A program made the translations under genes and the position numbers. 36,341 bases of DNA, taken from positions 1 through 36,341 of the forward strand of contig JAFGJO010000041.1 in NCBI GenBank assembly GCA_016929065.1, written 5' to 3'. The number at the start of each line of letters is the position of its first letter. Position 1 is the stretch's first letter. This stretch comes from Spirochaetales bacterium (GTDB lineage Bacteria > Spirochaetota > Spirochaetia > SZUA-6 > RPPD01). Of the stretch, positions 7,809 to 25,937 are shown one piece after another. Under the pieces are notes generated by a model, which was not told where the DNA came from, made no database searches, and was given only the letters and a program-made list of their open reading frames with translations.

Positions 7809-8654
7809 ATGAAGATTCGACCGTTTAAAAAGAAACCACTGCCGTTAGTGACCGAAGGAGATTTGTGTCTTTTTTTTGTGGGTGTCGGGAGTGCCTTTTC
7901 GAAAATACATAACCAGACAAACCTTTTAGTGACAAAAGGAGATGAGCATGTGCTTGTCGACTGCGGGATAAAATGTCCGCAGGCATTATGGGAACTTGGG
8001 TGCCCGATCACCGATATCAAAAAACTGCTCATCACTCACTCGCACGCTGACCATATCGGCGGACTTGAAGAAGTTGCACTGATGGGAAGGTATCTTTCCC
8101 ACCGCCGGCCGACAATGATTATTTCCAAAGAGTATGAAAAAATGCTCTGGGATAATTCATTGAAAGGAGGCTGCGGATATAATGAAGAAGGCAAGCTCGC
8201 ATTTGACAAGTTTTTCAAGACAATCCGTCCCGAAAAGGTCGCGGATGCCGAACGGGAATTGTCTGAAGTGACAGTTGGCGATTTAAACCTGCGCATTTTC
8301 AGAACAAAGCATATCCCCGACAGTTCTTTAACCTGGGAAGCTTCTGCCTACAGTGTCGGTGTGATTATCGATAAAAGAATTCTGTTTACCAGTGACACCC
8401 GCTTTGATCCGGAATTTTTCATCAGTCTTGATATGGAATACCAGTTTGAGACCATCTTTCATGATTGCCAGTTTTTCAAGGGCGGGGTGCATGCATCACT
8501 TGAAGAGATTGCCGGATACCCGCTGGAGCTTCGAAAAAAAATGTATCTGACCCATTACGGCGACAATTTCAAGGACTTCAAGGTAAAAGTAAAGAAACTC
8601 GGTTTTGCGGGCCTCGCAGAGCAGCATGTATTCTATTGTTATGATGAAAAATAG
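7809..8654 (+). CDS. Metallo-beta-lactamase-fold hydrolase (RNase Z-like)
   Basis: The 281-aa product has the metal-binding motif THSHADH at residues 76-82, followed by GG. Further candidate ligands are the histidine in RTKHIPD (about 167), the aspartate in FTSDTRF (about 195-201) and the histidine in LTHYGD near residue 254. The spacing and the final LTHYGD fit the RNase Z/ElaC or PhnP-like branch rather than true beta-lactamases. There is no signal peptide, so it is cytoplasmic. The substrate could be a nucleic acid or a cyclic phosphodiester; I cannot tell which. Unlike tRNase Z, no exosite arm is evident. The stop is 3 nt from the stop of the convergent gene at 8658. Confidence 0.75.
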   Translation: MKIRPFKKKPLPLVTEGDLCLFFVGVGSAFSKIHNQTNLLVTKGDEHVLVDCGIKCPQALWELGCPITDIKKLLITHSHADHIGGLEEVALMGRYLSHRRPTMIISKEYEKMLWDNSLKGGCGYNEEGKLAFDKFFKTIRPEKVADAERELSEVTVGDLNLRIFRTKHIPDSSLTWEASAYSVGVIIDKRILFTSDTRFDPEFFISLDMEYQFETIFHDCQFFKGGVHASLEEIAGYPLELRKKMYLTHYGDNFKDFKVKVKKLGFAGLAEQHVFYCYDEK

Positions 8655-11184: not shown

Positions 11185-14100
11185 ATGAAAAGAAATCACC
11201 TTCCTTCCAGCCTGATTTTATTTTTTTGTCTGTTTGTCTTCGCTGCCGGGACTGCATTCGCAGCAGGAAGCGGGAACGCAGCACTCGACAAGACCGAGTT
11301 TGCACTGTCAGATATTCATGAAACACATCTCAACGTGACTGAACGTGGCCGTTACAGTGTGCAGGTGAAAAGTGCCACTGGTACCCGGATTGAGCTGGTA
11401 GACCGGATGGCAGGAAGTCTTGTCGCTGACGGGACAACAGGAAAAAAGGACGGACGGCTGGACATTATCCTGGAAGAAGGTGAATACAAGATTCTGCTGT
11501 TTCCGGATCTCGACAGCGGTGCATCGGCAAAACTTTCGGTTCACTCATTCACGGAAGAACATCCGGGTGTCAAAGTCGAAGATTTGCCGGTCCTCTATGA
11601 CGGTGATTACATTGAAACCACACTGAATGATCTATCCACCCGTTCCTTCTGGCTGTATTTTGAAAAAAAAGATGAGCTCCGGCTTGAAATCCTGGGACGT
11701 GCCCTGAAGGAATGCAGTATCTGGCAAAACGGCCAATGGCTGATGTCGTTGAAGCCGGAGATGAGTGTGTATGAAACCGCGGCCGGAAAACCGATGCAGT
11801 ATGCAGAGTACGCCCGCACCTTTGAACCGGGCCACTACCTTTTGGTGCTTTCCGGCGGCGAGCCGACACCCTGGCCGAATGAATCAAAAGAGTATCCATT
11901 ATATATCCGGCGCGGATTTCAGTACCTGGGTGAAGCGGGAATCAGAAAAGTAAAGGTTTCTCCATTTGGCAGGGACAGTTTTCTGGTTTCTTCAGCATCC
12001 AATTATTTTGAGTGTATTCGCAAGGATTTTCAGGACACGCGGATGAGCACCAGCCGGTTTCAAAGCGGATACTCACGGCATACCCGATCGCACACCGCGG
12101 TCATTAACAAGGATTCAAAGAGCCCGTTTTGTGCGTTCTCGGGAAGTAATTACGGTACGCAGCAGATTCTTACCCTTGAGGCAAAACCAGGTGACGAACT
12201 TGAAGTTCGATTTTTCAAATCAATCTACGGCACCGAGTCGTTTTATTTTGAGCGGTCAAAAGATGAAAAGATGTATTTTCTGGCAGGGCTTCCGTCGATC
12301 GAAGCGGAAAACACCCTGGATTTGACGCCCATCCTTCTCGATACATATGACAGTAAAATAGACAAGATGAAAGACATGGCCTTTCATGTAAGCGGCCGCA
12401 GTCCGCTGGTAAGAGAAGTAAATCTGTTCGGTTATAATTATATTTATCTGTATATAGAGGAACCGGGGACCTACAAGCTCGCCGAAACAAAAGAAGGCGG
12501 CGCGCATGGTGAATACCGGCTCCGCAGGGTCGATGAAATCCTGTTTCGCAATACTTCCACCCCCTACCAAAAGGCTGACGCCGAGTTCAAGGTGGTTGAA
12601 GGATTTTATCGCCTCGAAGTACGTCCTGTTGATGCGGGAATACTCCACTTTGCCTTCTACAAAGACTGGTCGCAGAACCCGGAAAACCTGCTTTCAAAGG
12701 ACGCGCCGAAACCAATATCCTCATTTGCCTGGCCGAGTGTTGCAATTGCAAAGAACGAAGGAAGCACAAAGCGGCTGTATGTCAATACACGTCACGAAAC
12801 ACAGCTCGGCCTGATTATGCGGGAACTGCCAATCAACCCGGCCGAACCGGTATCGTTTTATCTGCAGGCAAATGAAGAAGTGTCATTTCCGCTGATCATC
12901 AAAAATGAATCGTATTTGTATATTGACGGCACCGGATTAACGGTTACGCTTTCCGGCAAAAAAATACAATCCGGCTCTCCCCTGAAAAGCGGGAGTTATA
13001 CACTGCAGATAAAAAATAATGAAAAAGACACAGCGCTCTGTTCGGTGTATGCCTATGAAAAAACTCAGGTGGACCGTACACCAAAGCCCAATTTGAAACC
13101 GCTTGCAGAATCGTTTCCGGTGTTAACCGGGGAAAAACCCTGGTTCGCGGACTTTGAACGGAACGAGACAAAACGGCTACTCTTGCAGGTAGATAACCCC
13201 GGCCTGTACAGAATCGAAACAACCGGACGGCTCGCAATGTCTGTTTCCATTCAGACTGCGCTGATCCCGTCACTGGCGTCTGCCTCCGAGAATGGATCGG
13301 GCAGAAACGCGGTAATCGCACAGTATGTTCGTCCCGGCTATTACCTTGTCTCGGTGACGACACGGGGAAGAACAACCGGACGTGCAGGTGTGTTTTTGAA
13401 AAAAACCGCGCTTGTCGATGAGGGGAATCTTCCTGTTGATATTATCAGCCGCAAGACGATTCCGGGAGATGCCGCCTTGCGCTATTCCCTGTTGCCATTT
13501 GAAGAAGGGAAGTACCGCATTAATTCTTTCGGATTGGGCCTGCAGTTTCCGTTCCGGCTTGAAGACAAGGACGGCTATCCAATTGTACCGGAGGGAAAAA
13601 CCGGAACAGCGGTAACAATGCGAAAAGAACAATATGCGTTTTATTCGCTGCCGCTTACCTTTGAATCCCGCCGCCTGACCCGGTTTGTGAAAATTGAGGA
13701 CACCCTCACTGTAGATGCAAAAGAATATAAACTTGAACTGAACAAACAGCAGGAACATGTCTGGAAGGAATCAGAAAACCGTGTGCCGGATGTCTATACC
13801 ATTGAAATCCCCGCGAAGATGAATGTGAACATGTCTCTTTCCCGTGGAATGAAGGCGGAGGTGGTATCATCCAATGATTCAGTTGCACCTTTCGGGCTTG
13901 AGGGCGGCAAAAATATTTCTCTGTTTGCCGAAAAGGGGATGTATACAATCAGTGTCCAGGCGCAGGAAGAACAGAATCTGCTGCAATATTCAATTTCTGT
14001 AATGACCGCTGAGCTTGTACCGGGACTGATGATTTCCCTGCGGAGCATTCCCTCCACGGTGAATCTCAGTGTCGGGAACGACGCGGTTTATGATTTATGG

Positions 14101-16326
14101 AGTTTCGGGTTTACCGATATCAAGGCCTCTTTGTGGGACGAATCGGGAACCACTCTTTTGGCAGAGAGCGATGACCGGGAAAACGACTGGAACTTCCGAA
14201 TTACACAACGGCTGCAGCCGGGACGGTATCTACTGAAAATTGACCAGGTGGGGTATGCGTCCGGCAGTATCATGCTGTACTGTGACGAGACGACGCGGAC
14301 AAAACTTGCAGTCGGGCTTTTGCCCATCAAACTTGACCGTGAGATCGGAAAAAACATCATCGAAATCCCCATAAAGCCGGCTGCTGACGGGGTATTTTTA
14401 ATCACCGCAAAGAAGGGTGTTTCAGTTCAGTTTGCCGTGTATAAAAACGAAAAACTGTGCGCAAGGTCCCAGGATGTTCTGGCAGTTCCGCTTTTTGGAA
14501 ATACAGATTATTCCCTGCATGTATGGCAGGGTGAGGATGCCCCCCAGCAGGTGACGGCCGAGGGACATATGCTCACGGGCAGTGCCATTGCCCTGGGCGA
14601 TACGCCAAAAACAATCGGGGGTGCGAGTGCTTACCGTCTGTCGAATCCGCTGGGACTGGGATATTCATTTACAAGTAGTGATCCGGATGTTTATTTTTCA
14701 CCGGGATATGAATATCCCTGTAAATCATTATCAGAGTACTCGGTTCCGGTTTCAAGTACCGGTTTTCTGGTATCGGTTTCAAATGAATCAATTAAAGAGG
14801 TTATTGCACGTCCGCTTACTGTCGCACCGGGGAGGCCGGCTACTGTGTTTATCGAGGATATCGGTGCATCTTTTCTGCTGGAATCGGTCGAAGACCGGGT
14901 ATTCCTTGTTGAGGCCGAGACCCAGGGACTTCCGCCGGGAGTATTTCTGCTTCCACGGTCTGCATATAAAGCAGGTGAAATTACCTGGGCCGGTGTGGAG
15001 CTTGTTTCCAACGGGTCGTTTACCACTGCAGCGACTGGCGGGAAATACCAGGGAAAGGTATGGAACCTGTCGGCGTATACCGGCGGTATTGGACTGCGGG
15101 TAAACCTGAAGGTGACCGGTTTTGCAGTCCAGTCAGAAAAACGGATCGGGATCGGCGACACCGGCACCTTCATCATTGATCCGGGAAAAAGTGTCCGGGT
15201 GTATCTTGAAAAGGGCACCCAGGAAGTACAGCTTCTTCTGGAAAAAGGGTGCAGTGCAGGAGTATGGAACAATGGCCAGCCGCTGGGCATTGGCGTTGCA
15301 ATGCACGAAAACCGGGAACTGCGGGTGACGGTGGACGGCGGGGTTGTTGTGGTCATGAATACCGGAAAGCTTTCTGCTGCTGCAAGAGTGAGTTCTGCTT
15401 CTGTACGGCAGGAGCAGCTGTTGAGCATCCGCAGGGGAGAAAAGAGGGATGTGCTGTTTACCGATGAGGGAACAGTGACGGTTCAGGTGGCTACCCCGAA
15501 AAGCGATGATGTAGTCTGTGTCGGCGGTGATGTCCGAAGTGCAGTGCTGCGCGGAACCGACGGCAATATTTACCGGGGAACACCGGGAACTGTTGACCTG
15601 CCCTTTTTGTCCTTTCCCGGGGTAGCAGGTGAACTGGTGATTGAACATACCGCCGGAGCAGTGCAGATCTGGATTTCACAGAAAAATCTGGCTGCGGACA
15701 GCGGCGCGGGAGTTCCTCAGGGAAACCAGAAGAAAATCGGAAGCGGCAAGACCGATATCGATAACACCATGGCAACGTGGAGTTTTACCATGAATGCTCC
15801 GGGATTTGCGGTATTCCGTATTGCTGCGCCGGGTGTTGCGGCGTTGAGCGAAAAAGGATCGGTGACCATCCTGTCAATTTCGGGCTCAAGCGAGGAGCGG
15901 ACAATCATTAAATATCTGGAAAAGGGGACGTATGCGTTTTTAACCCGCCCGCTTGCTTCCATTAAAATGGAAGGATCATTCCATTTTCAGCAAGTCGTGC
16001 CGCAGACGTTCAAGACAGATGATGCCCAAACTGCATATTTTATCGGGAAAAATGAAATGCAGGCGTTCCGGTTTTCGGTGGAAGCAAAAGCGACAGTCGG
16101 CGTGGGTGTTGCCACAGATTCCGACCTGGTGAATGCGCGGCTCTACGACAAGTCGTTTCAACTGCTCGGTGAAGGGCGTTTGATGTTCCGGGAACTCGAA
16201 CCGGGTGAATATTATCTGGCGGTATTTGGAAAAGACAAGCCAGTGCGGTTTTCACCGCTGGTTTACGGGCATGAAGGCATGATTGCCGATGTTCCGCAAG
16301 AGGTGATTGACCGGTATAAAGACTGA
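11185..16326 (+). CDS. Giant secreted protein of repeated beta-sandwich domains, partner of A2M
   Basis: The 1713-aa product has a signal peptide (cleavage near TAFA-AG, residue 27). No enzyme motif or further membrane segment is visible. It is built from many diverged repeats, each containing a turn plus strand of the form PGxYxLxV: EEGEYKILL (about 95), EPGHYLLVL (213), EPGTYKLAE (426), VEGFYRLEV (471), KSGSYTLQI (601), NPGLYRIET (671), RPGYYLVSV (716), EEGKYRINS (773), EKGMYTISV (916), QPGRYLLKI (1011), EKGTYAFLT (1579), EPGEYYLAV (1672). The spacing suggests about 12-15 domains of the pre-peptidase C-terminal or similar beta-sandwich type. It lies 110 bp upstream of the alpha-2-macroglobulin gene on the same strand, and GGGAGAG precedes its ATG. 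It may be a periplasmic scaffold or binding partner of the macroglobulin; that is inference from position. I know of no described family. Confidence 0.7.
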   Translation: MKRNHLPSSLILFFCLFVFAAGTAFAAGSGNAALDKTEFALSDIHETHLNVTERGRYSVQVKSATGTRIELVDRMAGSLVADGTTGKKDGRLDIILEEGEYKILLFPDLDSGASAKLSVHSFTEEHPGVKVEDLPVLYDGDYIETTLNDLSTRSFWLYFEKKDELRLEILGRALKECSIWQNGQWLMSLKPEMSVYETAAGKPMQYAEYARTFEPGHYLLVLSGGEPTPWPNESKEYPLYIRRGFQYLGEAGIRKVKVSPFGRDSFLVSSASNYFECIRKDFQDTRMSTSRFQSGYSRHTRSHTAVINKDSKSPFCAFSGSNYGTQQILTLEAKPGDELEVRFFKSIYGTESFYFERSKDEKMYFLAGLPSIEAENTLDLTPILLDTYDSKIDKMKDMAFHVSGRSPLVREVNLFGYNYIYLYIEEPGTYKLAETKEGGAHGEYRLRRVDEILFRNTSTPYQKADAEFKVVEGFYRLEVRPVDAGILHFAFYKDWSQNPENLLSKDAPKPISSFAWPSVAIAKNEGSTKRLYVNTRHETQLGLIMRELPINPAEPVSFYLQANEEVSFPLIIKNESYLYIDGTGLTVTLSGKKIQSGSPLKSGSYTLQIKNNEKDTALCSVYAYEKTQVDRTPKPNLKPLAESFPVLTGEKPWFADFERNETKRLLLQVDNPGLYRIETTGRLAMSVSIQTALIPSLASASENGSGRNAVIAQYVRPGYYLVSVTTRGRTTGRAGVFLKKTALVDEGNLPVDIISRKTIPGDAALRYSLLPFEEGKYRINSFGLGLQFPFRLEDKDGYPIVPEGKTGTAVTMRKEQYAFYSLPLTFESRRLTRFVKIEDTLTVDAKEYKLELNKQQEHVWKESENRVPDVYTIEIPAKMNVNMSLSRGMKAEVVSSNDSVAPFGLEGGKNISLFAEKGMYTISVQAQEEQNLLQYSISVMTAELVPGLMISLRSIPSTVNLSVGNDAVYDLWSFGFTDIKASLWDESGTTLLAESDDRENDWNFRITQRLQPGRYLLKIDQVGYASGSIMLYCDETTRTKLAVGLLPIKLDREIGKNIIEIPIKPAADGVFLITAKKGVSVQFAVYKNEKLCARSQDVLAVPLFGNTDYSLHVWQGEDAPQQVTAEGHMLTGSAIALGDTPKTIGGASAYRLSNPLGLGYSFTSSDPDVYFSPGYEYPCKSLSEYSVPVSSTGFLVSVSNESIKEVIARPLTVAPGRPATVFIEDIGASFLLESVEDRVFLVEAETQGLPPGVFLLPRSAYKAGEITWAGVELVSNGSFTTAATGGKYQGKVWNLSAYTGGIGLRVNLKVTGFAVQSEKRIGIGDTGTFIIDPGKSVRVYLEKGTQEVQLLLEKGCSAGVWNNGQPLGIGVAMHENRELRVTVDGGVVVVMNTGKLSAAARVSSASVRQEQLLSIRRGEKRDVLFTDEGTVTVQVATPKSDDVVCVGGDVRSAVLRGTDGNIYRGTPGTVDLPFLSFPGVAGELVIEHTAGAVQIWISQKNLAADSGAGVPQGNQKKIGSGKTDIDNTMATWSFTMNAPGFAVFRIAAPGVAALSEKGSVTILSISGSSEERTIIKYLEKGTYAFLTRPLASIKMEGSFHFQQVVPQTFKTDDAQTAYFIGKNEMQAFRFSVEAKATVGVGVATDSDLVNARLYDKSFQLLGEGRLMFRELEPGEYYLAVFGKDKPVRFSPLVYGHEGMIADVPQEVIDRYKD

Positions 16327-16334
16327 TGTATCGG

Positions 16335-16409
16335 GTGTCTGGTTTGTATTGCCGGACACTCTTTGAAAAAATAAATGTCTGAACTGTTGTGCCGTGAGGA
16401 GACAGTTCA
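16335..16409 (+). promoter_or_regulatory. Two intercistronic hairpins
   Basis: The 110-bp gap between the giant protein and A2M genes holds two hairpins. One has arms at 16335-16342 (GTGTCTGG) and 16352-16359, with one G-T pair. The other has perfect arms at 16380-16387 (TGAACTGT) and 16402-16409. Neither has a T-tract. They may stabilise or process the mRNA and set different levels of the two proteins. Confidence 0.45.
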
Positions 16410-16436
16410 TCGTAAAATAATTGTGAGAGGTGGGAT

Positions 16437-19400
16437 ATGACCACAGGTATCAAAAAGATATTGTTTATACTTTTTTTGGGAGTTGTTGCTGCAGGTGCAG
16501 GCTTTTGTGAAGGTACCGCAGAAGACCGGACGGATTTTGGTCCGGGGAGTCCCGAGGTGCGTCAGGCACTCGACAAACAGGGACTGGTGATTATTCCCGA
16601 ATCATATCTTCGTGGATACGATCCGATCACTGTTTTTTTTAGTTCCGATGTGGGCCCAAAAGACGGCGGCCCGCTGGACAATCCGAAAGGGCTTTTGGAA
16701 ATTTCCCCGCCGCACCCCGGGGAATACCGGTTTATTGACTCACGGACATTGCAATTTTTACCTGCTGAAGGGTGGCCTGCCCTGCGGTCCTATACCATCC
16801 GGTCAAAAAATGTTGCAAGAATACTTTCCACCCTGATGGTGCCGCCGAGCAGCATTTCTCCCTCCAGCGGGTCGAAGGAACTGGAGCCGATAAAAAAGCT
16901 TTCTCTTGCCTTTCAATACCCGGTCGGCATCGCGGAGCTTGCAGAGATGATTTCTTTCGAGGAAAAAGACCTTCCCGGGGTCGGGGCAATGGCTTCGAGC
17001 TGGCTTACCGGCAAGGATTTTACCCTGAAGGTTCTGGACCGCAGAAGCGAGAAAGAACCAGCACGGTATGAGCTTACCTTTCACAATCCCATCACCTATG
17101 GAAAACAGCTGACCATGTACCTGCGGCTTGCAAAAGACGAGAAAATACAGGGATCATTGGCGACCTATACCTTCTCTACCAAGCAGGAGTTCAAGATTGC
17201 ATCGGTCGGTGCCGGGTATTTCAATCTTCCGGTATCTCTCCAGGGAAGCAGCTTTAACCTTGAACAGGCATTCAACTGCGGATCGGGGAAAACACCCCTG
17301 TTTATCGAGTTTACTGAAAATCTGCAGTCTCCTTCCATTGAGACGGTCAAACGGATGGTACACTTTGAACCCGCAGTACGGGACCTTACCTTTGATATTT
17401 CCGGTAAAAAACTTTATCTGTATTTTACTGTCGACCGTGAGACGCCGTATAAACTGACGGTGACCTGGCAGCCGTTGAAAAGCCGGACAGGACGGTCCCT
17501 TTCCGCTTTTGGCGATTCATCATTTTACTTCTATTATACCCAGAACAGTGCCTATCTGCAGTGGAAAAAGGGTGAAGCGATTGTTGAACGCTACGGGCCA
17601 AAGCATTTTCCAATGCAGGGTCGCGGGATAACCCAGGTCGATTTGAGAATTTACAAGATCGATGCAGAGAGCCGGAATTTCTGGCCGTTCCCGAATCAGC
17701 CGTTTGCCATTGATGAAGAATCACGTCCACCCATGCCCGGCGAGGAGCCGGAATACGGGCAGGATCTGCAGGCACAGATTCGGCTATTGGGCTCGCCTCA
17801 CGTGTCCCAGATTATTGCCCTGCCGATAACCGAAAAAAGCGGGTCGAGCCTGTTCGGGCTTGATCTTGCTCCGTATCTGCAGCGGATTTCTGGGGTCAAT
17901 GAACCGGGTACCTATTTAATCGGGTACCGGCTTTTGGGATCGACCACGCGCCGTATTTATGTGCGAATGACGGTTACCGACATTGCGCTCAGTACCATTG
18001 AAGAAGAGCATGCAGTCAATTTTGTGGTCACCTCGCTGTCCACCGGAAAACCGCTGGCCGGCGCCGAAGTAACGATTGATGGTGAAGAAAAATACAATGA
18101 ACCCTGGATTCCGGTGATATCCGGCATTACCGACAACACTGGCCAATACAGGTATCAGCATACCGCAAAATTAAAGGGAACCATAAAAAGAATACGGGTT
18201 AAATACAGGGGAGATGAGTTGGTGCTTGACCCGAATACTCCGCCCCAGCACTTCATGAACAATCACTGGTTCGGCGCAGGCGGTAGATGGCTGAGCTGGG
18301 TAAACTCCGAGCCGCGTCAGGAAAAAGAATCCGCACGCAGAAGGGGGTATATTTTTACCGAGCGGCCGGTCTACCGGCCCGAAGAACCTGTTCATATCAT
18401 GGGGTATGTACGGCTCCTGCAGCAGGGAAAAATTACAGCCGATGATGCAGGCCGAAAACGGTATGTCATTGTCACTGCACCGGGTTACAAGCAGTGGAGC
18501 TATCCGGTGACCCTTACCGGAAACGGGACCTTTTATGTGAAGTTTGATGAAAAAGACCTGCCCACCGGGGATTATTCGGCGGTGATTCGTGACGATAAAT
18601 CAGGTGAGAACCTGTCGACAATCAATTTTAAAAAAGAAGCCTACCGTGTCCCGCGGTTTGAGGCAACAATTACCGGCCCCGACCGGGTCCCTGTTGACCG
18701 CGAGTTTTCGTTGACACTCACCGCAGACTACTATGCAGGCGGACGGGTTGTCGGCCAGCAGGTGATCTGGGAAATCACAAAATACCCGTATACCATACGG
18801 CCCAAGGGCCTGCCCGGTTTTATTTTCTCCACCGATGAATCGTTCTCCGGCGGACGGATCTACGCGTATGACGGTGCAACCACAAAAAGGGATGTTACCG
18901 ATGATAATGGATCCGCGATATTGAAAATTAATCCTGCTATAGAACAGGCCGGCGTTCCGCGCCGGTATGTCATTGAAGGAACAGTGCAGGGAGCGGACGC
19001 CCAGACAGTTACTGCGGTCAAACAGGTGCTGGCAGTTCCGTCGTTCGCCATCGGATTAAAAGTCGACCGGTTCGTAAAGGATTCGAAAATAATAAAACCC
19101 GAAGTCATTATTATTGATCACGATGAAAAACCATTGTCCGGAAAGGAATTGACAGTCAGGCTGTATCACCGGGAATGGCATTCGTATTTAAGCGAGAGCG
19201 ATTTTACGACCGGTCAGGTGAAATATCATACTGATGTCGTGGACAAGGTGATCCAGGAGACAAAATATACATCCCGCGGTGAACCGCTTGTACTCACATT
19301 GCCCGTTGATAATGCCGGTGTGTATATCGTCGAGGTCATAGCCAGGGACAATCTTGGCCGGCTGCAGAAACTGCAGCAGGATCTGTATGTCGCCGGTGAT

Positions 19401-22271
19401 ACGCCGGTGAGCTGGAAAAAAGCATACGCGAATGTATTTGAGACCTCGCTCGACAAAAAGATATACGCGCCGGGTGAGTCTGCAAATATTTTATTAAAGA
19501 GCCCGTTCCAGGACGCCCGGGCGCTGATTGTTGTCGAAGGCCCTTCAAAGAACGATTATTACTGGGTCGATGTAAAAAACGGACAGGGTATTTTTACTTT
19601 GCCGGTGACCAAAGATATGGTGCCCCGCATCCCGGTTCATGCTTTGTTGATTCGCGGCCGACTACCGGATACCGGTGACACATTCACCGGACGGGTTGAC
19701 CGTGGTAAACCGATCGCCATGGCGAATACCACATGGGTCGATGTCGATTCTGTTCAGCATAAGGCAAAATTGACTCTTGAACATGCATCGACCGCTTTAC
19801 CGGGAACAAAAATGACCATGAAGCTGAAACTCACCGATGCGGCAGGCAGGCCTGCAAACGGTGAAGTCGCCCTGTGGCTGGTGGATCGGGCAGTCCTTGC
19901 ACTTGGGGAGGAAAAATCACTGAATCCGTTGAGTGCGTTTATCGATCCGGTGTATGCATACCTGCGGTTCAGGGAAACACGCAATGAAGTCGTGGGAAAT
20001 ATTCCACTCGAGGAACTGCCCGGAGGCGGCGGTTGGGATGATGAGGCCGGCCGTGCCATGAGCAAGGAAGAGATGGCGGACAGGCTGTTTAAAAAGACAA
20101 CGGTGCGTAAAAACTTCCAGACGGTCCCGTACTTTAATCCAAAGATAGATGTCCGCAATGGGTACGCGGAAATAACCATCGACTTGCCCGAGAACCTCAC
20201 TGATTTTGCCGTGCGCGCGATTGCGACGGTAGATACCGACAAATTCGGGACAGCAACCTCCGTCATATCGATTCGGCTGCCGTTGATTGTCCAGTCGGCT
20301 CTGCCGCGGTTTGTCCGTCCGGGGGATACATTTCTTGCCGGCGGGATCGGCCGTGTGGTTGAGGGCGATGCCGGCCCGGGAACAGTGGCGGTTGAGGTAG
20401 AGAATATCCAGCTTTCGGGCAAGGAAACGCAGAAACGCGACAGCCGTGCAGTGCAATGGAAGCCGAAACTGGCGGAAAAACTGTATTTTCCGTTCAAGGT
20501 GCCCAAAAGTATTTCCTACGAAGATGACAAGGAAGTGACGATCCGCATTGCGGTAGACCGGACAAGTGACGGAGCAAGCGACGGTTTCGAGAAAAAACTG
20601 CCGGTCCAGTTTGACAATAAGATGAGGCGGATCGAGAAACTGAGCAGTATTGATTCTGCAACAGCGCTGAAGATGCCGGTGCCGGGTGTTGCGCCGCGAA
20701 GCGGGACTGTCCGGCAGATGGTGGTACTCACCTATGAACCGGAGATGGTGAAGCTGCTGCAGTCAATGTACTTTTTAAAGACATATGTACACGGATGCAC
20801 CGAGCAGCGTGTTTCAAAGATTTATCCGAATATTGCGTTGAAAGACGCCTTAACCCAGATCGGGCTCGCCGAGGAATACAAGGTCTCGGATGCCGACTTT
20901 GCAGACCTGATGGCATATCTTGAAACCACGCTTACCGAGAGCGGGCTGTACAGTTTCTGGCCGGGTTCAACCGGGTATGTCAGCCTTACCTCGTATGTGG
21001 TCGAATTTCTGGTTGCCGCCCGTGATTCGGGACTGACAGTGCCGGCGAAACTGCTTGACCGGCCAATTCAGGCTCTGCGCCGTGCTCTCCGCTCGGATTA
21101 CAATTATTTTGTTTCGGGGCAGTCATTCCGTGAGCGGGTTGAGGCTCTTTCTGCACTCGCTGCTGCGCGGCAGTTTGAGGATCAGTACGCCTATCAGCTG
21201 CTGGTTGGCGCACAGGACGGTGATTTGTATACAAAGGCCAAAATACTCAGGCTTTTTCTGACAAATAAAAAACAGGACAATTCTGATGTCAAAACACTGC
21301 AGAAGCAGGTGTGGGACTCGACGGTATTCCGCAAGCGCGGTGCCGATGAACTGTTTGAAGGTTTTCAATATAAAAATGATTCATGGGGAGGGCTGGTCCT
21401 TTCAAGTGAAATACGTACTACCGCAGAGATTATCCGGGCGTTGTACCGTGAAAATCCCGATAACCGGCGGGTACAGCTCATGACCGATTACCTGGTGCAG
21501 AAGGGCGACTCTGCCGGATGGGGAAGCACCTCGAACAATGTTTCAGCGCTTCTGGCGTTTGCCGATATCCTGGGCCAGCGTACAGCGCAGAGCCAGCGCA
21601 AGCATACATTCAGGTTTACCTACGGCGGGAAAACGGCCGAGATCGATACCAACGGCAGAAACACATCGCTGTATCAGTTCAGAAGCGACAGTCCGGGAAT
21701 CATTGAATATGTTTCCGGCGACAAGAACAACATGCCGTCTGCATGGCTTGTTGTGGATTACATCCCCGAAGCAACGGGAGACCTGCTGCCAGCCGAGAAC
21801 AACGGGTTTGTTGTTGAAAGGGAACTGCTTGAATACGGTGAAGATAAAAAGCTTAAAGCGCGGCGGAAACCAGAGAAGGCAAGCCGGCAGACCTACGAGA
21901 TGGAAACAATTATTGAGGAACACGTCACGGTGATTAATGGTGAAACCAGAAATTTCGTTGCCGTGATGGTGCCGTTTGCAGCGGGATTCGAAATCATGAA
22001 CCCGGCTTTGGCAACGTCCTCGAAAGATGCACAGCCGCTGGGAAGACTTACGGCGAACCCGAGCTATACCTATTACGGTGATGATCAGGTAATTTTTTAC
22101 TATGATACACTCCAGAAGGGAACATACGAGTTTTACTTTAGAATCCGTGCGAGTTTTGAGGGAGAATATTCTCATCCGCCGGCAAGCGCCGAGTTGATGT
22201 ATGACCTGAATACCAGCGGCCGGTCAGATGGAACAAAGATTGTCATTATCCCGAAAAATGACGGAAAATAA
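16437..22271 (+). CDS. Bacterial alpha-2-macroglobulin with thioester
   Basis: The 1944-aa product is a YfhM-type alpha-2-macroglobulin, a periplasmic trap that is cleaved by a foreign protease, changes shape and binds it covalently. Features in order: signal peptide (residues 1-24); macroglobulin-like domains, including SLSTGKPLAGAEVTIDG (about 535-555) and the hallmark TERPVYRPEEPVHIMG (about 640-656); a bait-type region; the A2M domain (LPENLTDFAVRAIATVDTDKFG, about 1250-1270, with LPRFVRPGD following); and the thioester motif CTEQ with C1454 and Q1457. The alpha-helical thioester domain and receptor-like C-terminal domain follow. The cysteine at residue 23 sits in AGFC, a poor lipobox because of the phenylalanine, so lipid anchoring is doubtful although expected for the family. 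AGGTGGG precedes the ATG. pbpC follows by 18 bp. Confidence 0.92.
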   Translation: MTTGIKKILFILFLGVVAAGAGFCEGTAEDRTDFGPGSPEVRQALDKQGLVIIPESYLRGYDPITVFFSSDVGPKDGGPLDNPKGLLEISPPHPGEYRFIDSRTLQFLPAEGWPALRSYTIRSKNVARILSTLMVPPSSISPSSGSKELEPIKKLSLAFQYPVGIAELAEMISFEEKDLPGVGAMASSWLTGKDFTLKVLDRRSEKEPARYELTFHNPITYGKQLTMYLRLAKDEKIQGSLATYTFSTKQEFKIASVGAGYFNLPVSLQGSSFNLEQAFNCGSGKTPLFIEFTENLQSPSIETVKRMVHFEPAVRDLTFDISGKKLYLYFTVDRETPYKLTVTWQPLKSRTGRSLSAFGDSSFYFYYTQNSAYLQWKKGEAIVERYGPKHFPMQGRGITQVDLRIYKIDAESRNFWPFPNQPFAIDEESRPPMPGEEPEYGQDLQAQIRLLGSPHVSQIIALPITEKSGSSLFGLDLAPYLQRISGVNEPGTYLIGYRLLGSTTRRIYVRMTVTDIALSTIEEEHAVNFVVTSLSTGKPLAGAEVTIDGEEKYNEPWIPVISGITDNTGQYRYQHTAKLKGTIKRIRVKYRGDELVLDPNTPPQHFMNNHWFGAGGRWLSWVNSEPRQEKESARRRGYIFTERPVYRPEEPVHIMGYVRLLQQGKITADDAGRKRYVIVTAPGYKQWSYPVTLTGNGTFYVKFDEKDLPTGDYSAVIRDDKSGENLSTINFKKEAYRVPRFEATITGPDRVPVDREFSLTLTADYYAGGRVVGQQVIWEITKYPYTIRPKGLPGFIFSTDESFSGGRIYAYDGATTKRDVTDDNGSAILKINPAIEQAGVPRRYVIEGTVQGADAQTVTAVKQVLAVPSFAIGLKVDRFVKDSKIIKPEVIIIDHDEKPLSGKELTVRLYHREWHSYLSESDFTTGQVKYHTDVVDKVIQETKYTSRGEPLVLTLPVDNAGVYIVEVIARDNLGRLQKLQQDLYVAGDTPVSWKKAYANVFETSLDKKIYAPGESANILLKSPFQDARALIVVEGPSKNDYYWVDVKNGQGIFTLPVTKDMVPRIPVHALLIRGRLPDTGDTFTGRVDRGKPIAMANTTWVDVDSVQHKAKLTLEHASTALPGTKMTMKLKLTDAAGRPANGEVALWLVDRAVLALGEEKSLNPLSAFIDPVYAYLRFRETRNEVVGNIPLEELPGGGGWDDEAGRAMSKEEMADRLFKKTTVRKNFQTVPYFNPKIDVRNGYAEITIDLPENLTDFAVRAIATVDTDKFGTATSVISIRLPLIVQSALPRFVRPGDTFLAGGIGRVVEGDAGPGTVAVEVENIQLSGKETQKRDSRAVQWKPKLAEKLYFPFKVPKSISYEDDKEVTIRIAVDRTSDGASDGFEKKLPVQFDNKMRRIEKLSSIDSATALKMPVPGVAPRSGTVRQMVVLTYEPEMVKLLQSMYFLKTYVHGCTEQRVSKIYPNIALKDALTQIGLAEEYKVSDADFADLMAYLETTLTESGLYSFWPGSTGYVSLTSYVVEFLVAARDSGLTVPAKLLDRPIQALRRALRSDYNYFVSGQSFRERVEALSALAAARQFEDQYAYQLLVGAQDGDLYTKAKILRLFLTNKKQDNSDVKTLQKQVWDSTVFRKRGADELFEGFQYKNDSWGGLVLSSEIRTTAEIIRALYRENPDNRRVQLMTDYLVQKGDSAGWGSTSNNVSALLAFADILGQRTAQSQRKHTFRFTYGGKTAEIDTNGRNTSLYQFRSDSPGIIEYVSGDKNNMPSAWLVVDYIPEATGDLLPAENNGFVVERELLEYGEDKKLKARRKPEKASRQTYEMETIIEEHVTVINGETRNFVAVMVPFAAGFEIMNPALATSSKDAQPLGRLTANPSYTYYGDDQVIFYYDTLQKGTYEFYFRIRASFEGEYSHPPASAELMYDLNTSGRSDGTKIVIIPKNDGK

Positions 22272-22289
22272 GAGAGCCGTACAGAGGCG

Positions 22290-24740
22290 ATGCGCATAGG
22301 AAAGTTTTTAGCCATACTCATATCTCATGTGAACAGCACTATCCTGTTTTTTATCGGGGAGCTGCAGCGCAGGATCCCAAAAAAAATCACTGCACTGCAA
22401 GCGCGGCGGATCATTTTCTGGATTGTCGTGTCGCTGATCGCATTGATATTGCTGCAGGCTTTTTTAAAGGCTGACCTTGTCTCGCCCCCGGCAACACCCA
22501 TTTTTGAAGACCGAAGCGGCGCTTTTTTATCGGAGGGCGCAAGCGAATATCAGTCTTTGGGATTCTGGGATATTCAGGGTGAGATTCCCCCGCGAATCAA
22601 GGCAAGTGTGCTCATTATCGAGGACAAAAGGTTTTATTCGCACATGGGGATTGATTACTGGGCGCTCGGCAGGGCCTTTGTTTCAAATTTATTTTCACAG
22701 GACCGGCAGGGGGCGAGCACAATCCCCATGCAGGTGGCCCGGCTTCAGAATCCCGGCGACCGGAATATCATCAATAAAGCCAATGAAATGCTCATCGGAT
22801 TTTTTCTTTTACTTCGGCATGGGCATGAAAATGTTTTGCGCCATTATATGAAGATCGCACCGCAGGGACATCAGGCGCATGGATTTGCCTATGGTGCTCG
22901 GCGATTTTTCCGCAAGCCGCTCGTGGATGTGAACTGGGCCGAGGCTGCGCTTCTCGCGAGTCTGCCGAAATCCCCCTCGACCATGAATGTGTTCAATTAC
23001 TGGGGATTTCAGCGGGCACAGGCGCGCGCGCGGGTAATTCTGCGTCTGCTGTTCACCGCACACAAAATATCCCGTGAGGAATACCAGATTGCGCTCCGAC
23101 AACTGGGGGAGATGCATTTTCAGCTCCGCGAACAGCGGCCGGATAATGCCTATCACTACATTTTCCGGGCGATTCAGGAATACAGGGAAAAACCAAAAAC
23201 AGAAATTACCCGGCCGGTTCGAACAACCCTTGACAGTGATTTACAGGAATATCTTTCATCCCTTGCGGCCAATTCGATCATGTCGCTTCGCCAGCTGGGC
23301 GCGGGAAATGTTTCCATGATTGTTGCAAAACGGGATACCGGGGAAGTTGTGGGCTATGTCGGTTCTGCACAATATTTTGATGAATCATTTGCCGGTGCCA
23401 TCAACTACGCGGCAACGCCCCGTTCAAGCGGGAGCACGGTGAAGCCGTTTTTATATGCGCTTGGGCTTGAAAGCGGTGTCTATAATCCGGGAAGCATTAT
23501 CCCCGATCTGCCGTTTTCAATAATCGGGCCGAACGGAGAATACTCTCTGGGCAATTTTGATGAAGAATATCTGGGGCCAATGCTTTACCGCAGGGCTTTG
23601 GCGAACAGCCGCAACATTCCCACTGTGAGGGTTCTTGAACAAATTGGCCTTGACCGCAGCTATGATTATTTCCGTGAAATGGGCCTGGTCACCGATGACA
23701 AGCCGGCGGGTTATTACGGGTACGGCCTTCCGGTCGGGGGCCTGTATGTCACGCTGGAAGACCTTGTGTCAGCCTACGGAATCCTTGCCAATGACGGCAG
23801 GGAGTTTCATCTGTCATGGTTCCCCGATGAAAAAAAGAACGATACTCTCCCCCGCAGGCGCATGAGCGAGTACGCTGCCCGTGAAGTCACTCTTTTTTTA
23901 AGCGATACATTGGCCCGGCTTCCTTCGTTCAAGCGACTGGAGGCCCTTGAGTTTCAGTTTCCGGTCGCCATTAAAACAGGTACTTCGCAGGGATTCCGCG
24001 ATGCATGGGCAATTGCCTATTCGGATTCCTGGATTGTCGGGGCCTGGATGGGGCACCCGGAAAACCGGGCAATGAATCACATCTCGGGGAGTGTGGTTGC
24101 CTATCTTGTCCAGGACATCATGAACACCATCCATCCAAAGGAACGGCGGGGTGTTGACATTGTGCCGTTTAAAATTCCTGAGGGAACGGTTCCGGTGCGG
24201 GTCTGTATTTTTTCGGGGAAACGTGCAGGACCCGACTGTTCAGCCGTGTCCATTGAGTATTTTCCGGAGGGTACTGAACCCTATGACCTCTGCCCGGTTC
24301 ACCGCCGTTTTGCGGTGGATGCACGAACCGGTGAGCTTGCCGATGAACACACGCTGCCCCGGCAGATCGAGAGCCGGCTGTTTACTGTCCTGCCCCCGGA
24401 ATACGCGTCCTGGGGAGCGACGCACGGATTCGCCAAACCCGTGGTCGATACAAGCGAGGAGCCGCTTGCAGAAGTCAAACTGGTCTTTCCCATGGAGGGC
24501 ACCCGTCTTTTGCTTGATCCCGAGACGCCCCGGCAGTTTCAAAGCATTTCGCTGCGGTGTGAGGTGATGCCCTATGTCCCGGAGGTGATCTGGTATGTTG
24601 ACGGACAGGCATACGCAAAAGTTGGGTATCCCTACGAGGCGCGGTGGACCCTGCAGGAAGGCGAGCACGCATTCCAGGTGCGTTTTCCAAAGGCAAATGT
24701 GCGGTCAAATGTCATCACAGTTCGGGTTGGGTCGTATTGA
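22290..24740 (+). CDS. pbpC: Penicillin-binding protein 1C
   Basis: This bifunctional cell-wall enzyme polymerises and cross-links peptidoglycan at the outer face of the inner membrane. The 816-aa product has one membrane helix (about 41-58). The GT51 transglycosylase domain carries IEDKRFYSHMG (catalytic E111) and GASTIPMQVARL. The transpeptidase domain carries STVK (S382, K385), an SRN triad motif in ALANSRNIPT, and KTGTS (562-566). A C-terminal beta-sandwich of the BiPBP_C type (about 720-815, starting VKLVFPMEG) identifies it as PBP1C rather than PBP1A. GASTIPMQ has P where most members have T. It starts 18 bp after the A2M stop with GAGG upstream, so the two are co-transcribed, as in many proteobacteria, where PBP1C is proposed to repair walls when A2M meets intruding proteases. 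Confidence 0.93.
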   Translation: MRIGKFLAILISHVNSTILFFIGELQRRIPKKITALQARRIIFWIVVSLIALILLQAFLKADLVSPPATPIFEDRSGAFLSEGASEYQSLGFWDIQGEIPPRIKASVLIIEDKRFYSHMGIDYWALGRAFVSNLFSQDRQGASTIPMQVARLQNPGDRNIINKANEMLIGFFLLLRHGHENVLRHYMKIAPQGHQAHGFAYGARRFFRKPLVDVNWAEAALLASLPKSPSTMNVFNYWGFQRAQARARVILRLLFTAHKISREEYQIALRQLGEMHFQLREQRPDNAYHYIFRAIQEYREKPKTEITRPVRTTLDSDLQEYLSSLAANSIMSLRQLGAGNVSMIVAKRDTGEVVGYVGSAQYFDESFAGAINYAATPRSSGSTVKPFLYALGLESGVYNPGSIIPDLPFSIIGPNGEYSLGNFDEEYLGPMLYRRALANSRNIPTVRVLEQIGLDRSYDYFREMGLVTDDKPAGYYGYGLPVGGLYVTLEDLVSAYGILANDGREFHLSWFPDEKKNDTLPRRRMSEYAAREVTLFLSDTLARLPSFKRLEALEFQFPVAIKTGTSQGFRDAWAIAYSDSWIVGAWMGHPENRAMNHISGSVVAYLVQDIMNTIHPKERRGVDIVPFKIPEGTVPVRVCIFSGKRAGPDCSAVSIEYFPEGTEPYDLCPVHRRFAVDARTGELADEHTLPRQIESRLFTVLPPEYASWGATHGFAKPVVDTSEEPLAEVKLVFPMEGTRLLLDPETPRQFQSISLRCEVMPYVPEVIWYVDGQAYAKVGYPYEARWTLQEGEHAFQVRFPKANVRSNVITVRVGSY

Positions 24741-24785: not shown

Positions 24786-25937
24786 GTGAAAAGCAGAAGG
24801 ATCCTTATAAATATTATTTTCCAATCCTGCTGGCTGTTGGCAGCCTGTCTCCCGTTTATTGATTCGGGCAGCCTGTTTTCGGGGAAGACCATTTATGTAC
24901 GCAGCCTCTCCCTGTTCGCAGTTCAGCATGCGGTAAACCAGGCTGCAGATGGGGATACCATCGTTCTGCCGAAGGGACAGGCCGAATGGAATGACAGTCT
25001 TTCGATTTCCTCGGGGATTCACCTGAAAGGTCAGGGGCCCGGCAATACGGTAATATCACAGACTGAAACAGACGGTTCGGCAAACCTTGTGTATATTGCG
25101 GGAAAGCAGGGAGCCCCGTTCATGGTTTCAGCCATCACCTTTACAGCCCCGGCATCTATCGAACCCAATCAATCTACCTCCATTTTTATCGCGGGTGACT
25201 GCAAGAATTTCAGAATTACAAATTGTGCATTTACTGCACAAAACGGCCATTCTATTAATATCCGCGGATATACCTATGGGGTCATTGATCACTGCGATTT
25301 TTTAAGCGCTGCCCAGGAAGTCATCGTTGTGTTTGATGGAAACAATGGGGAAGATTCGTGGCTTCGGCCCTTGTCGCTTGGGACGCAGGACGCTGTCTTT
25401 GTAGAAGACTGTACTTTTGATTTTCAGACGAAAGGGGATCATGCGATCACGTCGAATAACGGCGCGCGGTATGTGTTCCGGTATAACACCATTCAATCTT
25501 CCCGGGATACCAATTCCACCCAGGTTGACGCGCACGGCAATTATTTTGCCGACAGGGGAACTTTCAGTGTTGAGATTTATAACAATACACTGAAATCCGG
25601 CCGCAGCTGGTACGGCCTGTACATCCGCGGCGGGACCGGAGTTATTTTCAACAATACCTTTACCGGCGATTACCCCAACCCCATTGTGTTTACCTGCTAC
25701 CGCGCATTTGTGGAAGATGCGGGTACACCATGCGGGTATGTTGCCTGCAGCTGGCCGGCAATTGACCAGATTCATGATTTCCATGTGTGGAATAATGTGT
25801 GCAATGAGGCGCCTGCTTCCGTAACTGTCCTTGACCGGGGGCAGGACCAGCTGTTTGTGCAGAAAGGCCGGGATTATTTTGAAACCCCGCTCGCAGGATA
25901 TACACCTTTTGTGTATCCGCATCCCTTGAATAAATGA
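24786..25937 (+). CDS. Secreted right-handed beta-helix protein, probable lipoprotein
   Basis: The 383-aa product starts at a GTG, with only a weak ribosome-binding site. The signal peptide ends in LLAAC (cysteine 21), a good lipobox. Residues 35-75 (YVRSLSLFAVQHAVNQAADGDTIVLPKG) are the usual entry of pectate-lyase-type beta-helix proteins, where an AVNxAxxGDTI segment opens the solenoid. Repeated beta-helix turns follow (FRITNCAF, GVIDHCDF, AVFVEDCTFDF, VEIYNNTLKSG, GVIFNNTFTGD). Six or more cysteines in the C-terminal half may form disulphides. The residues resemble polysaccharide lyase scaffolds, but no catalytic set can be assigned. It lies 45 bp after pbpC on the same strand and might share its transcript. 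Confidence 0.68.
   Translation: MKSRRILINIIFQSCWLLAACLPFIDSGSLFSGKTIYVRSLSLFAVQHAVNQAADGDTIVLPKGQAEWNDSLSISSGIHLKGQGPGNTVISQTETDGSANLVYIAGKQGAPFMVSAITFTAPASIEPNQSTSIFIAGDCKNFRITNCAFTAQNGHSINIRGYTYGVIDHCDFLSAAQEVIVVFDGNNGEDSWLRPLSLGTQDAVFVEDCTFDFQTKGDHAITSNNGARYVFRYNTIQSSRDTNSTQVDAHGNYFADRGTFSVEIYNNTLKSGRSWYGLYIRGGTGVIFNNTFTGDYPNPIVFTCYRAFVEDAGTPCGYVACSWPAIDQIHDFHVWNNVCNEAPASVTVLDRGQDQLFVQKGRDYFETPLAGYTPFVYPHPLNK

Follow-up and report, generated by a model that had tools for sequence, protein, structure and literature searches.

A giant secreted protein is encoded with one distinct subfamily of bacterial thioester alpha-2-macroglobulins

Introduction

The pairing of bacterial alpha-2-macroglobulin (A2M) with PBP1C, and the combined defence and repair role proposed for the pair, are already known (PMC5764988, PMC4498604, PMC3328433). 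Accessory proteins have been described for the type II Mag system, in which MagA, MagB and MagF bind MagD (PMC5764988). Bacterial thioester A2Ms, by comparison, have so far been regarded as complement-like traps that stand alone and are paired with PBP1C.

Here we analyse a locus from the metagenome-assembled genome (MAG) of a Spirochaetales bacterium (class Spirochaetia) in which a thioester A2M and PBP1C are preceded by a 1713-aa protein, hereafter the giant. The giant looks like a main component of this periplasmic protection system that has gone undescribed, and a search of the open-licence literature found no description of the giant, of its A2M subfamily or of their strict pairing. If the giant is a near-obligate partner, one branch of A2Ms would work as a complex comparable to the type II Mag assemblies; this would open a way to study how A2Ms come to be positioned in the periplasm and why they travel with wall repair.

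Results

The window (the whole stretch of DNA that was analysed, 36,341 nucleotides) encodes the giant (11185–16326), the A2M (16437–22271) and PBP1C (22290–24740) in series on the forward strand, which bears out the first-pass annotation of a secreted 1713-aa protein, a 1944-aa A2M and PBP1C in a row. The gaps are 110 bp between giant and A2M and 18 bp between A2M and PBP1C, and a purine-rich, RBS-like stretch lies 5′ of all three ORFs. The giant starts with a plain Sec signal peptide, followed by what translation, alignment and AlphaFold2 models suggest is an all-beta array of PPC-like domains. The A2M (1944 aa) has a signal peptide without a clear lipobox, carries MG2, A2M_BRD, A2M and MG10 (bMG10) domains that all score above their Pfam cut-offs, and reaches 3009 bits against the profile of the giant-associated subfamily described below. 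Its thioester motif, previously read as an intact CTEQ, is complete, with GCTEQ at residues 1453–1457 (20793–20807, forward strand) and C, T, E and Q (C1454–Q1457) invariant across 11 subfamily members. The PBP1C ORF (816 aa) has Pfam Transgly, Transpeptidase and BiPBP_C domains, and although its 445 bits to TIGR02073 (PBP_1c) fall below the 494-bit cut-off, this is the best match of all class A PBP models.

Several further features of the window and its genome were recorded. A right-handed beta-helix protein (24786–25937, forward strand) starts 45 bp past PBP1C and was not seen at the equivalent position in the related spirochaetes read; a conserved fourth gene 3′ of PBP1C was considered and rejected, the f2 spirochaetes having a different, 232-aa protein there. 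PADLOC returned no match to an anti-phage system at the locus. A 281-aa metallo-beta-lactamase-fold protein (7809–8654, forward strand) matches the anti-Pycsar Apyc1 model PF23023 (128 bits; cut-off 50), and could act as a phosphodiesterase of the cell or derive from a phage. On another contig of the same genome (G000:C7; L016, 3571–9606) lies a second A2M of 2011 aa with SCTEQ, outside the giant-associated subfamily; behind it, in the same orientation, comes a 612-aa ORF, and no second giant was found in this genome.

Searches of Pfam and NCBIfam placed the giant in no family at or above cut-off, the nearest NCBIfam model being the DVUA0089 family (27.3 bits vs. a cut-off of 29). Pfam likewise gave no PPC match (PF04151) in the 1713-aa protein, and a Rhizobium homologue reached 20.9 bits against a cut-off of 25.9. 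Database entries name members of the family “hypothetical protein” or, if they have a small additional domain, “lysozyme inhibitor LprI family protein”. The diverged repeats noted at first pass are real: the motif [PAEQKRS]GxYx[LIVFY] occurs 13 times, compared to 0.7 times in sequences shuffled for composition (at most 5 in any of 500), GxYx[LIVF]-type motifs occur 13–14 times compared to about once, and a profile compared with itself matches off the diagonal at E-values as low as 3e-19; the motif itself is looser than the PGxYxLxV first written for it, which occurs once in strict form. The family can be aligned over its whole length, and an 18-sequence alignment contains 50 invariant columns, including D1001, W1002 and N1003. 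One member alone (L012, genome G003) carries a short tandem insertion of about five GGRAE units at alignment columns of about 1485–1510. Homology of the giant to A2M MG domains was tried and found unsupported (hhalign probability <2%), and a comparison of the giant profile with the sequences of solved structures gave nothing below E = 0.4.

AlphaFold2 models of the two halves of the giant (residues 25–858 and 846–1713, 17–18 aligned sequences) predict its domain folds with good confidence (mean pLDDT 87.4 and 86.2, respectively), nearly all beta and with few disordered stretches. As modelled, the giant is a tandem array of PPC/CBD-type beta-sandwiches. The best supported domain of the N-terminal half (residues 640–741; 13102–13407, forward strand) is of PPC/collagen-binding type and aligns in VIA-align to the ColG CBD (1nqj) with Z 12.7, rmsd 2.0 and 92 of 96 residues aligned at 14% identity. 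A second PPC-type domain, which holds the invariant DWN (residues 942–1036; 14008–14292, forward strand), aligns to a collagenase PPC domain (5sv5; Z 11.6, rmsd 2.2, 91 of 105), and the same region matches NCBIfam FDP_fam at 4e-6, slightly below cut-off. The remaining domains match other small beta-sandwiches, with a PPC match less sharp than in these two. A catalytic domain was not recognised in the giant. Foldseek matches over the whole chain have no meaning (TM <0.2 when taken by query length), and the same holds for rows pairing the giant with C3, C4b and A2M, which are long beta-sandwich chains with TM ≤0.1.

These models bear on a decoy-substrate role, one of those first offered for the giant, in which it would be sacrificed to proteases that enter. 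The giant is large, secreted and encoded next to a trap, as a decoy might be; such a role is nevertheless the least plausible of those offered, and close to negligible in our estimate, because the protein is conserved, with its invariant columns extending across phyla, and is predicted to be well folded.

Residues 1035–1130 (14287–14574, forward strand) are predicted to take a PliG-like fold, aligning to the periplasmic g-type lysozyme inhibitor PliG (4dzg) with Z 11.5, rmsd 2.4 and 96 of 114 residues, a resemblance at fold level only and tied with that to PPC domains. In addition, an LprI domain (PF07007) is fused N-terminally, above the Pfam cut-off, in three alphaproteobacterial giants (L032, L033 and L182, from Methylocystaceae, Hyphomicrobiales and a Rhizobium plasmid). 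Both observations favour the strongest rival explanation, namely that the giant is no trap subunit and instead inhibits wall-degrading enzymes (lysozyme, other glycosidases) in parallel, with the A2M acting against proteases, the giant against lysozymes and PBP1C in repair. We regard this as unlikely. Pfam finds no PF07007 match in the 1713-aa giant, most members of the family likewise go without LprI, and PF07007 is a broad family in which inhibition is documented for few members. Moreover, inhibition by itself leaves unexplained why only one A2M subfamily needs a giant.

Full-length homologues of the giant, at 20–40% identity, occur in Spirochaetota, Acidobacteriota/Aminicenantes, Poribacteria, and Alpha- and Gammaproteobacteria. 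Among 61 relatives, three other spirochaete genomes encode full-length giants at 30–40% identity and others carry partial copies; in those three, the order giant, A2M, PBP1C is conserved on one strand. A single-sequence scan of the genome-collection contigs with the giant gave no match, whereas a profile built from five giants retrieved 20 loci, in Spirochaetales, Aminicenantes, Poribacteria, Holophagaceae, other Acidobacteriota, Gammaproteobacteria, Methylosinus, Methylocystis-type bacteria, Hyphomicrobiales and Plastoroseomonas. With the exception of Poribacteria, an A2M lies immediately behind the giant at every one of these loci whose contig continues past the giant. The giant stop and A2M start codons overlap by 4 bp in six loci. 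Cultured Methylosinus and Rhizobium both have the locus, with the whole trio of giant, A2M and PBP1C found on complete Rhizobium plasmids. In Rhizobium sp. C104 (L184) all three genes are annotated in pieces, which suggests that the cassette on this conjugative plasmid is decaying.

We next describe the A2M side of the pairing. A profile (A3) built from 11 giant-adjacent A2Ms divides A2Ms in two, with nearly complete members scoring above 1500 bits and all other A2Ms at or below 573 bits; all of its source sequences being giant-adjacent, the “subfamily” is partly defined by its partner, a circularity limited by the wide score gap and by the independent check of upstream DNA. In a drawn sample of 1,213 genomes (Spirochaetia 395, one Rhizobiales-type order 297, Acidobacteriota 247, Gammaproteobacteria 274), 23 encode a subfamily A2M; the upstream DNA is readable in 21 of these, and all 21 have the giant directly upstream in the same orientation. 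Some A2M is present in 173 of the 395 Spirochaetia genomes, and a subfamily A2M in 5, each with the giant directly upstream (5/5). The Rhizobiales-type order has subfamily A2Ms in 2 of 297 genomes, both with a giant, and Gammaproteobacteria in 4 of 274, again all with a giant (4/4). Acidobacteriota contribute 12 of 247, ten of them with the giant directly upstream; in the other two the contig ends at the A2M; of these, G400 (from which L027 comes) has a giant on another contig. By contrast, no giant adjoins the eight A2M loci of Acidobacteriota that fall outside the subfamily, of which seven include PBP1C and one is a lone A2M (0/8). The test that the first-pass annotation had set, whether giant homologues adjoin A2M and pbpC genes more often than chance, thus gave a strongly positive answer, and we saw neither a family mostly located away from A2M genes nor a match to a known unrelated function. 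The first-pass interpretation is for the most part upheld, but its broader suggestion of an accessory subunit new to bacterial A2M systems applies to one A2M subfamily and not to bacterial A2Ms in general.

The reverse search points the same way, with subfamily A2Ms in 18 of 19 tested giant-bearing genomes from the collection. Co-occurrence is near-exclusive, and the giant is made together with one distinct A2M subfamily in at least four phyla. In the spirochaete MAGs G026 and G034, pieces of the giant lie at contig ends and a subfamily A2M was not found. Three Poribacteria MAGs contain both a giant and a subfamily A2M on different contigs (pairs L022/L108, L038/L107 and L021/L109); the gene after the giant is not an A2M in two of them and the contig ends there in the third, while the A2M loci have neither a giant nor PBP1C adjoining. 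Retention of both genes when unlinked argues for functional coupling of giant and A2M.

The partners also share their inheritance. Patristic distances of giant and A2M correlate at r = 0.975 over 26 loci, those of giant and PBP1C at 0.958, and those of A2M and PBP1C at 0.979 (19 loci), values reached by none of 2000 Mantel shuffles in any case; many of the tree loci come from MAGs. Giant and A2M trees split the Acidobacteriota alike and against taxonomy, part grouping with Proteobacteria and part with Aminicenantes and Poribacteria. The two trees match and conflict with taxonomy at the same points, which indicates that the cassette has moved as a unit, or that its genes at least share a history. 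Transfer as a unit would also suit a giant that shares an operon with the A2M while being functionally uncoupled from it, and that travels with it by chance or through horizontal transfer, yet its retention in all readable cases across phyla, together with the unlinked Poribacteria pairs, makes this very improbable.

Near-obligate pairing and co-inheritance are also what one would expect if the giant were a stabiliser or assembly factor of its A2M, serving folding or half-life and not positioning, as MagB is for MagD in Pseudomonas (PMC5764988). We hold this to be somewhat less probable than the inhibitor explanation: at 1700 aa the giant is large for a chaperone, and its profile shows no sequence relationship to YfaA, YfaP, YfaQ and YfaT, the accessory proteins of the E. 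coli type II system (hmmsearch E ≥0.3 for those listed; hhalign probability <1%).

PBP1C is a less constant companion of the A2M than the giant, being missing or relocated at several loci. It does not lie beside the subfamily A2M in Poribacteria, at an Ectothiorhodospiraceae locus and at one Acidobacteriota locus (G727), and in Holophagaceae it is placed upstream of the giant. A clear lipobox is found in none of 24 giant-type A2Ms and is also missing from most of 8 classical A2Ms; the contrast is accordingly not used as evidence here, and an argument for tethering drawn from it would be weak.

Discussion

Taken together, these results make it probable that the 1713-aa protein is a dedicated partner of a distinct subfamily of thioester A2Ms, that giant and A2M together make up the core of a protection module in the periplasm, mostly but not invariably joined by PBP1C, and that the giant serves in it as a binding platform. 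Its most likely role is that of a scaffold or tether for the A2M, in keeping with the scaffold or anchor function suggested at first pass, which is the most plausible of the roles offered there. We prefer this role because the giant is a long, enzyme-free array of binding-type domains produced alongside one A2M subfamily, and because, by analogy, type II Mag accessory proteins bind and stabilise their A2M (PMC5764988). Caution is warranted, as chains of beta-sandwiches are common to many unrelated proteins.

Under the scaffold or tether model, the giant would be exported into the periplasm and reside there, its chain of PPC-like beta-sandwiches forming a long binding platform. We infer that it binds the A2M physically; it may also contact peptidoglycan, its glycans or the outer membrane, so that the trap would be held in position and kept stable. 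Proteases entering the periplasm would cut the A2M bait and be captured via the thioester, while PBP1C would repair the wall.

More tentatively, and at somewhat less than even chances, the locus could represent a third bacterial macroglobulin architecture, a trap made of two proteins, a 1700-aa multi-domain scaffold and a thioester A2M, that would assemble in the periplasm to ~400 kDa and optionally carry lysozyme-inhibitor domains, combining defence against proteases and lysozyme with wall repair in one horizontally mobile cassette. Because Methylosinus and Rhizobium with the cassette are in culture, the question of what bacterial A2Ms protect against can be put to the test in them.

PPC domains usually trail secreted proteases. 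The domains of the giant share their predicted fold with PPC and bacterial collagen-binding domains (Z up to 12.7), but unlike PPC-bearing secreted proteases the giant would be a PPC-like array that fills 1700 aa without a protease. The likeness to PliG and LprI inhibitors is confined to one domain of PliG-like fold and to the three relatives with LprI, a domain that the 1713-aa giant itself lacks. As in type I loci (E. coli yfhM-pbpC), a thioester CxEQ A2M with MG, BRD and MG10 domains is followed by PBP1C. However, the 1653-aa E. coli YfhM is a lipoprotein whose gene has no giant next to it, and its 113 bits to the subfamily profile, compared to about 3000 for members, set the present A2M apart as a separate subfamily, whose constant neighbour is the giant and not PBP1C. 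Type II Mag/Yfa operons (MagABCDEF, YfaPQSTA) differ in that their A2M is without a thioester, whereas the present A2M has GCTEQ, and in that their accessory proteins are small to medium in size and, in profile comparisons, not related to the giant; what they have in common with the locus described here is an A2M made together with dedicated accessory proteins.
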